NCBI RefSeq assembly: GCF_000092845.1
Contig: NC_014150.1
Location: 2,355,510 to 2,419,509 of the forward strand
Origin: Brachyspira murdochii DSM 12563
GTDB lineage: Bacteria; Spirochaetota; Brachyspiria; Brachyspirales; Brachyspiraceae
Length of the DNA stretch: 64,000 nucleotides
Reading direction: 5' to 3'
Shown: positions 23,470-26,556 of the stretch, piece after piece
Layout of the letters: every line of letters starts with the position of its first letter
Position numbering within the stretch: position 1 is the first letter of the stretch
Program-made: the position numbers and the translations under genes
Notes under the pieces: model-generated
Databases searched by the model: none
Told to the model about the DNA's origin: nothing
The model's input: only the letters and a program-made list of their open reading frames with translations

Positions 23470-24630
23470 TTAAATATTTAAAAATTTCTTTATACATTTA
23501 GTTTGTTCTGGATTTTTTATTAAAAAAGCATCATGTCCGTAATTGGATTCTATTTCATAAAACTCTGTGCTTATATTAGCATGCTGATATGCCGAAACTA
23601 TTTCAGCCGACTGTGTGCTAGGATAAAGCCAATCGGATATAAATGATATAACAAGTACTTTATTAAGAGATACATTTTTCTTGTTTTTAATTTTTTTTAT
23701 ATCATCTTTAGCATCAAAAAAATCCATAGCTTTAGTAAGATATAAGAAGCTGTTTGCATCAAATCTCGATGTAAATTTTTCTCCATTATAATGAAGATAA
23801 TTTTCTACTTCAAAAGAAGGAGTAAAGTATTTTAAAGCCTTTTTTCTTCTTCTTCCGAATTTTTTTCTCATATATTCTTCGCTCATATATGTAATATGTC
23901 CGAGCATTCTAGCCAAAGCAAGACCTTTATCTGGAGAAGACATTCCATAATATTTTCCTCCATACCATTCATTGTCTTCTGTTATAGCCTCTCTTGCTAT
24001 TTCATTAAAAGCTATCTGCATAGGAGAATGAGTCATAGTGCTTGCTATTATAATTGCTTTTTCCATCATTTGAGGATAAGAAGCTGTCCATTGTAAAGCC
24101 TGCATTCCTCCCATAGAGCCTCCTATTACACAGTAAAGTTTTTTTATTCCTAATGCATCTATTAATATTTTTTGTACCTTTACTATATCTTTAATCGTAA
24201 ATGTAGGAAAATCTGTTCCGTAGCATAGATTACTATTTGGTTTTTTTGAGGAAGGTCCAGTGGTGCCGCTGCAGCCTCCTAAAACATTTGAGCATATGAC
24301 AAAATATTTATTAGTATCTATTGCTTTGCCTTTGCCTACAAAATTACTCCACCAAGAAAGTACATCTGCATCTCCTGTAAAAGCATGGCATATTAAAATG
24401 GCATTATCTCTATTGATATTTAAATGTCCTGAGGCAGTGTATGCTATAGTTAATTCTTGTATAGAAGCCCCGTTTTCAAATTTAAATGCCTTATCATAAT
24501 GAAAGAATTTAAGGCTGCTTTTTTCATCTGTTATAATCTCTTCTATAATTTCTTCTATTTTATTGATTTGTTCTTTAATTTTACTTTTTTTATTTTTTTT
24601 ATCTTTTATTATATTTTTTATATTCTTCAT
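23470..24630 (-). CDS. metX: Homoserine O-acetyltransferase
   Basis: Transfers acetyl from acetyl-CoA to homoserine, the first committed step to methionine. From ATG 24630 (AGGGG upstream) the product is 386 residues: a Lys/Glu-rich N-terminal extension (about 40 residues, unusual), then an alpha/beta-hydrolase with nucleophile Ser172 in GGSMGGMQAL, HAFTGDADV oxyanion region, GGCSGTTGPSS, catalytic Asp in SDWLYPS and His in NYGHDAFL near the end. metY lies just upstream on the same strand and uses its product, but an intrinsic terminator lies between them. Confidence 0.93.
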   Translation of the reverse strand: MKNIKNIIKDKKNKKSKIKEQINKIEEIIEEIITDEKSSLKFFHYDKAFKFENGASIQELTIAYTASGHLNINRDNAILICHAFTGDADVLSWWSNFVGKGKAIDTNKYFVICSNVLGGCSGTTGPSSKKPNSNLCYGTDFPTFTIKDIVKVQKILIDALGIKKLYCVIGGSMGGMQALQWTASYPQMMEKAIIIASTMTHSPMQIAFNEIAREAITEDNEWYGGKYYGMSSPDKGLALARMLGHITYMSEEYMRKKFGRRRKKALKYFTPSFEVENYLHYNGEKFTSRFDANSFLYLTKAMDFFDAKDDIKKIKNKKNVSLNKVLVISFISDWLYPSTQSAEIVSAYQHANISTEFYEIESNYGHDAFLIKNPEQTKCIKKFLNI

Positions 24631-24655
24631 AAATAAACCCCTAATAAATATTATT

Positions 24656-24698
24656 AAAAACAAGAGTGAATTATATTATTATCACCCTTGTTTTTTAT
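24656..24698 (-). terminator. Terminator between metY and metX
   Basis: On the minus strand AACAAGGGTGA pairs with TCACTCTTGTT, followed by a T tract; ends about 26 bases before the metX start, so metX depends on read-through or its own promoter. Confidence 0.7.
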
Positions 24699-24708
24699 GC
24701 TTATATAA

Positions 24709-26004
24709 TTATTTGCTTGCTATAGCTAAAGCTTCGTCCAAATAATAAAGTATATCATCAATATGTTCTATTCCTATAGAAAGTCTTATAAAGTTTTTGC
24801 TTATTCCACCTTTTATTAATTCTTCTTCTGATAATTGAGAGTGCGTAGTAGAAGCAGGGTGAGCAACCAAACTTTTTACGTCTCCTACATTAACTAAATG
24901 AGAGAATAGTTTTATATTGTCTATAAACTTAACAGCAGCCTCATATCCGCCTTTAATTCCAAATACAACCATTCCGCCGAATTTATCTTTTAAATATTTA
25001 CTTGCCAAAGGATATGAAGGATCATTTTTTAGTCCCGGATATCTTACCCATTCAACTCTATTATCTTTTTCTAAAAACTCAGCAACTTTTAAAGCATTAT
25101 AAGAATGTCTTTCCATTCTTAAAGGCAAAGATTCTATTCCTTGTATAAAAGACCAAGAATTATCAGGTGAAAGACAAGCCCCCAAATTTCTAAGCGGTAC
25201 TGTTCTTACTCTTAAAGCAAAAGCAGCATTTTTAAGTTCATCAGGCAAATCATAAGCCCAGCGAAGTCCATGATAATTTGAGTCTGGTTTTGAAAATAAA
25301 GGAAACTTATCACTTTGCCAATTAAAATTACCGCTGTCAGTAATAATACCTCCTATAGCACTTCCATGTCCGCCTATCCATTTTGTAAGAGAGTTTATTA
25401 CAATATCTGCACCATGTTTAATAGTCTGCAAAAGATAAGGTGTTGTAAAAGTTGCGTCTATTACAAGAGGTATTCCGGCATTATGTGCTATTTCAGCTGC
25501 TTTTTCAATATCTGTAAAATCAAGCGAAGGATTTGATATTGTTTCTATAAATATTAATTTTGTTTTATCAGTAATTGCCTTAGCAAAGTTTTCTGGATTT
25601 TTAGCATCAACAAATTTTGTATTAATACCGAACTTTGGAAGTATTGCCCCAAACTGAGAATATGTTCCGCCGTAAACATTAAATGCAGAAACTATTTCAT
25701 CTCCAGCCTCGCATATTGTAATTATAGTATAAAATATAGCATTAGTACCAGATGATACAGCAATAGAAGCAAGTCCTCCTTCCATAGCAGTAATTCTTTT
25801 TTCTAGTACATCAGTTGTTGGGTCTCCCATTCTTGAATATATATATCCAAGTTCTTTTAAATCAAATAAATCTGCTGCATGTTTAGAATCTCTAAATAAA
25901 TACGAAGTCGTTCTATATATCGGTACTCCTCTGCTTCCAAACTTATCATCAAAATCCTGACCTGCATGTGCTGCTATTGTTTCAAACTTTAATTCTCTTG
26001 ACAT
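24709..26004 (-). CDS. metY: O-acetylhomoserine sulfhydrylase (aminocarboxypropyltransferase)
   Basis: PLP enzyme that makes homocysteine directly from O-acetylhomoserine and sulfide. From ATG 26004 (AAAGGAGA upstream; the 18 extra codons are not used) the product is 431 residues, typical of MetY rather than the shorter MetB/MetC. Motifs: YSRMGDPTTDVLEKR, the PLP lysine K208 in SLTKWIGGHGSAIGG, and the MetY-specific LRAMERHS-like segment PLRMERHSYNAL. Its leader carries a Met-rich peptide and an attenuator. It supplies homocysteine for methionine synthase. Confidence 0.95.
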   Translation of the reverse strand: MSRELKFETIAAHAGQDFDDKFGSRGVPIYRTTSYLFRDSKHAADLFDLKELGYIYSRMGDPTTDVLEKRITAMEGGLASIAVSSGTNAIFYTIITICEAGDEIVSAFNVYGGTYSQFGAILPKFGINTKFVDAKNPENFAKAITDKTKLIFIETISNPSLDFTDIEKAAEIAHNAGIPLVIDATFTTPYLLQTIKHGADIVINSLTKWIGGHGSAIGGIITDSGNFNWQSDKFPLFSKPDSNYHGLRWAYDLPDELKNAAFALRVRTVPLRNLGACLSPDNSWSFIQGIESLPLRMERHSYNALKVAEFLEKDNRVEWVRYPGLKNDPSYPLASKYLKDKFGGMVVFGIKGGYEAAVKFIDNIKLFSHLVNVGDVKSLVAHPASTTHSQLSEEELIKGGISKNFIRLSIGIEHIDDILYYLDEALAIASK

Positions 26005-26044: not shown

Positions 26045-26117
26045 AAAAAAGCCGCCAAAAATTAATTTGACGGCTGAAATTACAAAATAAAAAATATATT
26101 ATATTATACAGCCATCA
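26045..26117 (-). promoter_or_regulatory. Terminator/antiterminator attenuator of metY
   Basis: Terminator: GCCGTCAAA (26074-26066) pairs with TTTGGCGGC (26059-26051), then six T residues. Antiterminator: TGATGGCTG (26117-26109, inside the leader peptide codons) pairs over 9 bases with CAGCCGTCA (26076-26068), which includes the 5' arm of the terminator. The two folds cannot coexist. Confidence 0.8.
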
Positions 26118-26179
26118 TTATTAAACATACGCATTTGCATGAGGCAAAGCATCTGATTCATAACGATGATTGATTTCAT
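26099..26179 (-). CDS. Methionine-rich leader peptide of the metY attenuator
   Basis: A 26-codon ORF with a good ribosome-binding site (AGGAA, 26193-26189) 30 bases after the predicted transcription start. Six of its 26 residues are Met (1, 7, 10, 14, 16, 18) and two are Cys (12, 24). Codons 20-24 encode the 5' arm of the antiterminator. By analogy with trp/his leaders, ribosomes stalled at Met codons would leave that arm free and permit read-through into metY; ribosomes reaching the stop would cover it and allow termination. Sequence features are seen directly; the mechanism is inferred. Confidence 0.8.
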   Translation of the reverse strand: MKSIIVMNQMLCLMQMRMFNNDGCII

Positions 26180-26215
26180 TTTTTATAATTCCTACAATTA
26201 AATCTTAGTTTTTAT

Positions 26216-26244
26216 AGTATATAACAATATATAATTATTTTCAA
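26216..26244 (-). promoter_or_regulatory. Promoter of the metY leader
   Basis: On the minus strand TTGAAA (26244-26239), 17-base spacer, TATACT (26221-26216); start near 26208. Confidence 0.65.
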
Positions 26245-26496: not shown

Positions 26497-26556
26497 TTAA
26501 AAAATCGGGCGTCTAGCAATTTTTATTGCTAGACGCCTTAAAGCGAGATTTTTTAA
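26497..26556. repeat. Structured repeat element, unit 1
   Basis: Outer 10-bp stem TTAAAAAATC / GATTTTTTAA encloses a perfect 12-bp stem GGCGTCTAGCAA / TTGCTAGACGCC and an unpaired TTAAAGCGA. Confidence 0.75.

Follow-up and report, generated by a model that had tools for sequence, protein, structure and literature searches.

A putative methionine-sensing transcription attenuator in the metY-metX leader of Brachyspira

Textbooks describe transcription attenuators that read Trp, His, Phe, Thr, Leu or Ile/Val. The metY-metX locus of Brachyspira murdochii DSM 12563 raises the question whether methionine can be read in the same manner. We analyzed a stretch of 64,000 nucleotides of this genome (positions 2,355,510 to 2,419,509 of NC_014150.1, hereafter the window), in which a short methionine-rich ORF precedes metY on the minus strand. 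The elements of an attenuator, their conservation, the logic of the reading frame and the mutually exclusive pairings are all present in the sequences, and we consider it very likely that this leader is a Met-sensing, ribosome-mediated transcription attenuator that acts through charged elongator tRNA-Met.

The gene behind the leader (24709–26004, minus strand) was identified as metY, encoding O-acetylhomoserine sulfhydrylase (TIGR01326, 603 bits against a cut-off of 495); the closest named relatives of its product are found in B. innocens and Brachyspira sp. G79 (97%). The next gene on the same strand is metX (23470–24663), encoding homoserine O-acetyltransferase (NF001209, 446 bits against a cut-off of 331), which, judging from the spacing, is probably cotranscribed with metY. 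A domain of B12-dependent methionine synthase was found in 24 of the 26 genomes of the genus, so that homocysteine from MetX and MetY can feed methionine in most of them, and MetE was found in one of the 26. Upstream of metE in genome G001, the 5' region (L085) resembles a cobalamin riboswitch by eye, with no Rfam match at gathering level.

On the minus strand the elements are ordered promoter, Shine-Dalgarno-like sequence, 26-codon ORF, intrinsic terminator, metY and metX. The first-pass annotation had listed a promoter, a ribosome-binding site, a 26-codon ORF with six Met codons and a terminator before metY, and all were recovered where it had placed them. The promoter (TTGAAA-17-TATACT, 26216–26244, minus strand) matches the consensus at 10 of 12 positions. 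By itself this is a weak call, as the promoter scan returned 10 promoter-like sites where 8.6 are expected; it gains weight because an equivalent site, TTGA[AC]A with a -10-like hexamer, is present in all 22 homologous upstream regions. The Shine-Dalgarno-like AGGAA (26189–26193, minus strand) was read from the sequence, and AGGA, GGAG or GGAA precedes the ORF in 21 of the 22 homologues. The remaining leader (L027, genome G010) has no recognizable Shine-Dalgarno sequence upstream of its ATG, while the remainder of this leader is conserved. A strong terminator of 13 pairs (26508–26537, minus strand) lies just upstream of the leader promoter and likely isolates the metY unit from upstream transcription.

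The leader ORF (26099–26179, minus strand) encodes MKSIIVMNQMLCLMQMRMFNNDGCII, followed by a stop codon, with Met at codons 1, 7, 10, 14, 16 and 18. The number of Met codons alone is not remarkable, since 2 of the 314 small ATG-started ORFs within the window have six. It is conservation that lifts the leader above chance: a homologous ORF is present in all 22 aligned leaders, and we reject a chance ORF on this ground. The core of the peptide, C-L-M-Q-M (26132–26146, minus strand), contains the putative control codons Met14 and Met16 and reads CLMQM in 21 leaders and CLMQK in one.

Downstream of the ORF, a hairpin of 10 pairs followed by a U-run forms the intrinsic terminator (3:4; 26050–26075, minus strand). 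The terminator scan returned two terminators where 0.1 are expected, and a hairpin with T-run is present in 22 of the 22 homologues. The 5' arm of the hairpin belongs to segment 3, CAGCCGUCA (26068–26076, minus strand), identified in the alignment. The earlier annotation had proposed that a 9-base segment within the leader codons pairs with this region to the exclusion of the terminator. Both parts of this proposal held: segment 2, UGAUGGCUG (26109–26117, minus strand), forms nine pairs with segment 3, one of them G-U, in an antiterminator helix (2:3), and segment 3 belongs to both structures. When the leader was shuffled with its dinucleotides preserved, 6 of 2000 sequences gave a helix with this arm that was as strong. 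We identified in addition a 10-bp protector stem that had gone unnoticed. Its 5' side is segment 1 (26160–26169, minus strand) and its 3' side (26112–26121, minus strand) overlaps segment 2, as seen in the fold of the leader and in the alignment; 53 of 2000 shuffles were as good. As the protector competes for segment 2, the leader holds the full trp-type set of 1:2, 2:3 and 3:4 pairings. An apical stem-loop within the 1:2 hairpin, UUUGC-CUCAU-GCAAA (26134–26148, minus strand), lies over the core codons and is paired in 96.7% of the aligned cells. The fold of the 165-nt leader is more stable than that of shuffled sequences (z = -4.83), none of 200 shuffles being equally stable.

Across the alignment, the proportion of cells with standard pairs is 94.3% in 1:2 (including the apical stem), 92.4% in 2:3 and 99.5% in 3:4, against maxima of 62.7%, 60.5% and 57.5%, respectively, when the partners are slid relative to each other. 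Double-sided changes were found for one pair in 1:2 and for none in 2:3 or 3:4. Covariation in the leader stems is thus thin; it is limited by the fact that segment 2 pairs with both 1 and 3, and segment 3 with both 2 and 4. The protector is evident in the window as in most leaders, but weaker or rebuilt in L025–L029; in the B. pilosicoli-like group the 1:2 hairpin is largely rebuilt and the protector weaker.

Of the 26 genomes of the genus that were screened, 24 gave a metY match, and the leader precedes 22 of these genes. The two metY genes that lack it (G001 and G003) encode a non-orthologous MetY (43–44% identity) and are preceded by a different leader. The start codon is aligned in all 22 leaders. 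The total number of Met codons is six in 14 leaders, five in five, four in one and three in two (L025 and L028, which retain just two internal Met codons). Met14 and Met16 occur together in 21 of the 22 leaders and Met14 alone in one, but the eight leaders with a shifted frame lack Met18, and Met7 and Met10 vary, which essentially leaves Met14 and Met16 as the control codons. Cys12, Leu13 and Gln15 are conserved as strongly as the core Mets, CLMQ being present in 22 of 22. The first-pass annotation had proposed to align the metY upstream regions for conserved Met codons with covarying stems. This check came out in part: Met14 and Met16 are conserved together with the stems, but the other internal Mets are not and the covariation is scarce. 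The opposite pattern, Met codons and stems conserved separately, was named there as evidence against attenuation and was not observed, as core Mets and stems are kept together in the 22 leaders. A search for the core pattern located it in the metY leader of 21 of the 26 genomes and, besides, at one site each in G002 (L049) and G005 (L071). A wider regulon was considered and rejected: neither of the extra sites has a metY nearby, and both are taken as chance.

We regard the behavior of the reading frame as the strongest evidence for the attenuator. Start codon and core are separated by 33 nt in 18 leaders, by 30 nt in three and by 36 nt in one, which means that indels in this interval preserve the frame in multiples of three. 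Beyond the core the frame is not kept: the phase between core and segment 2 is 0 in 14 leaders and shifted in eight, through the loss of 1 nt (L015, L019 and L020), the loss of 4 nt (L026–L029), or the loss of 4 nt plus 6 nt (L025). The C-terminal peptides consequently differ (NNDGC.., IMMAV or TAA), while GGCTG of segment 2 is retained. In-frame indels before the core, together with shifted frames in which segment 2 is kept, indicate that what counts is translation as far as the Met codons and RNA thereafter, and selection seems to act accordingly on the frame and on the RNA. The stop codon follows segment 2 by 2 nt in eight leaders, 4 nt in nine and 7 nt in five, and thus seems placed such that a terminating ribosome would cover segment 2. 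Variant cells in codons 2–16 number 42, 16 and 60 at codon positions 1, 2 and 3 (19 distinct rows), a coding-like pattern. The frame evidence amounts to few independent events, because the sample is a single genus with related sequences.

We modeled the effect of ribosome position by masking the RNA to 15 nt past the first base of the P-site codon and folding the transcript as it is before segment 4 is made. The readout was the fraction of the terminator 5' arm taken by upstream RNA. In all 22 leaders the arm is predicted to be sequestered with the ribosome at the core Mets (0.75–1.00) and to a lesser extent with the ribosome at the stop codon (0.00–0.44). The same test gave 0.62 versus 0.01 for E. 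coli trpL and 0.90 versus 0.00 for thrL, so that the modeled ribosome dependence of these leaders is the same as that of Brachyspira. It does not separate the states of the known attenuator hisL (0.74 versus 0.74). Five of the 22 leaders were compared with 400 shuffles each, and the observed difference between stall and stop was reached by 2 (L008), 35 (L011), 24 (L019), 15 (L027) and 21 (L024); the selectivity of the model appears convincing for the window leader and moderate elsewhere. The partial transcript was used because a thermodynamic test on the full-length RNA separated the states poorly. At equilibrium the terminator prevails in the full-length RNA of most leaders even with the ribosome stalled at a core Met, likewise in trpL, thrL and hisL, and antitermination must therefore be kinetic. 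Without a ribosome, sequestration of the arm ranges from 0.02 to 0.98 across the leaders, which means that not every species has a strong protector; the window leader without a ribosome is predicted to terminate (0.98).

The conserved elements, the frame logic and the folding by ribosome position together support the trp/his-type logic with Met as the sensed amino acid that the first reading of this DNA had put forward. We infer the stalling of the ribosome and the direction of the response as follows. When methionine is plentiful, the leading ribosome would reach the leader stop codon and sit on segment 2; with segment 2 covered, the 3:4 terminator would form and transcription would stop. When elongator Met-tRNA is scarce, the ribosome would stall at Met14 and Met16 of the core, disrupting the 1:2 protector and leaving segment 2 free, so that 2:3 could form ahead of the synthesis of segment 4 and the polymerase would read into metY. 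Because methionine also starts translation, a starvation severe enough to empty the initiator tRNA pool as well would be expected to return the leader to its no-ribosome state. As this state terminates in the window leader, a non-monotonic response is predicted. A return to the terminated state on loss of initiation has been described for trp as "super attenuation" (PMC1183508). A bolder reading, which we hold to be possible but less likely than not, is that the leader is a band-pass attenuator, in which a moderate loss of elongator Met-tRNA would turn metY on and a loss of initiator fMet-tRNA would turn it off, with the CLMQM peptide possibly aiding the stall.

The invariance of the entire core, and not of Met alone, is also what would be expected of nascent-peptide arrest, in which CLMQM stalls the ribosome on a small molecule (methionine, SAM or another), in the manner of TnaC and tryptophan, and operates the same RNA switch with codon charge secondary. 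CLMQ is present in 22 of 22 leaders and Mets outside the core vary, as such a mechanism would have it. However, the core overlaps the UUUGC-CUCAU-GCAAA hairpin and a nucleotide constraint can explain the residues, and synonymous change in the core is limited to the Cys and Leu codons, too little to prove selection on the peptide; we consider arrest improbable. Cysteine, in place of methionine, might be the amino acid sensed, as Cys12 is found in 22 of 22 leaders, the segment-2 codons also hold Cys in 14 of them, and MetY is able to function in the synthesis of cysteine as well (TIGR01326 includes cysteine synthase activity). Against this single conserved Cys codon stand two conserved, and up to five internal, Met codons, and the adjoining gene is metX, of methionine synthesis, which makes cysteine sensing extremely unlikely.

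A ligand-binding RNA would dispense with the peptide altogether: the 1:2 hairpin would be the aptamer of a SAM or methionine riboswitch not yet described, and the ORF incidental. The long conserved hairpin with its terminator and the conserved CUCAU loop would suit this explanation. Translation is nevertheless indicated by the start codon, the Shine-Dalgarno sequence in 21 of 22 leaders, the frame-preserving indels upstream of the core and the distribution of variants over codon positions, and the extensive rebuilding of the hairpin in the B. pilosicoli-like group argues against an aptamer. A known RNA family was likewise rejected for the leader, as no Rfam family matched the window at gathering level and the weak matches to the leader had E values of 1.1 or worse. 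By covariance model, SAM-I (RF00162) was found in none of the 26 genus genomes (3 of 14 control genomes positive) and the T-box (RF00230) also in none of the 26 (5 of 14 controls positive). We regard a riboswitch as very unlikely.

The proposed Met attenuator shares with those of trp, thr, his and leu a short ORF whose codons include those of the amino acid that the pathway makes, and a putative protector, an antiterminator and a terminator with shared segments. It differs from them in that the control amino acid, methionine, is also the initiating one, in that the ORF runs through segment 2 with its stop codon 2–7 nt after it, and in its spirochaete host. Leaders that read another sulfur amino acid have been reported: uORFC-8-2, with cysteine codons, precedes cysS in Rhodobacterales (PMC8632094), and Cys leaders occur in Actinobacteria, those of the mycobacterial cys genes being without conserved terminators (PMC1262725). 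They resemble the Brachyspira leader in sensing a sulfur amino acid through leader codons, and differ in amino acid, gene and phylum. In Staphylococcus aureus, metICFE is controlled by a Met-specific T-box for which the initiator tRNA is relevant; as in our proposal, termination in a methionine operon depends on the charge of tRNA-Met, but the T-box binds uncharged tRNA directly, without leader translation (PMC3771891). The metXZ element of beta-proteobacteria also combines a conserved leader with a terminator, before metX or metZ; its conserved regions are described as pseudoknot-like, and the part of the source cited here makes no mention of a leader peptide (PMC4239095).

We found no earlier description of a methionine leader attenuator in the open-licence literature, subscription journals being mostly outside the scope of the search. 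Methionine is a special case, since a ribosome that senses it also depends on it for initiation, and this raises the question of how elongator and initiator tRNA-Met compete for charging during starvation. The proposed attenuator would bring the mechanism to spirochaetes, and is likely a regulator of methionine synthesis for a genus with no SAM-I or T-box match in its 26 genomes.

The non-orthologous metY genes of G001 and G003 (L031 and L030) are preceded, approximately 200–216 nt upstream, by MIKNLFNLSNIASCKFYFSFAFSMMMRVVAR and MSSFISLNLLNNASCVFSFSLSMMMRVCAR, each followed by a stop codon. This second leader has three consecutive ATG codons (SMMMRV[VC]AR) beside a GCGCG hairpin and a strong Shine-Dalgarno sequence, and no U-run terminator was seen at either leader. 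Folding for translational attenuation gave no clear switch in L030 or L031: the unpaired fraction of the Shine-Dalgarno sequence in L030 was 0.00 without a ribosome, 0.08–0.14 with the ribosome at the Mets and 0.55 at the stop codon, and in L031 it was 0.03–0.09 throughout. Among 392 Spirochaetota genomes, the three-ATG pattern was found in G001, G003 and two others. If the second leader is functional, Met leaders would have arisen twice in one genus. At related metY loci, genes that by eye resemble cysK and Rrf2 lie upstream in L072, and L073 has no Met-rich leader. An ORF starting with MMM in L045 (Goldiibacteriota) lies, by eye, inside the upstream cysK-like gene, and no such ORF is present upstream of metY in L046 (Verrucomicrobia).

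Beyond the genus, metY matches were obtained in 170 of 294 Spirochaetota genomes. We inspected 80 non-Brachyspira upstream stretches, chosen by hand among the matches listed and spread over families, and found a Met-rich ORF in four, versus two of 80 on the opposite strand as a control. None of these 80 stretches has a comparable leader with terminator or a Met-rich ORF close to a strong terminator; in L165 both are present, with the terminator 55 nt from metY and the ORF as far as 598 nt upstream. In this locus and in L159 and L164, all from one spirochaete family (f49), GC-rich hairpins with U-runs and no Rfam match precede metY, and these are possibly attenuators of an undescribed type.
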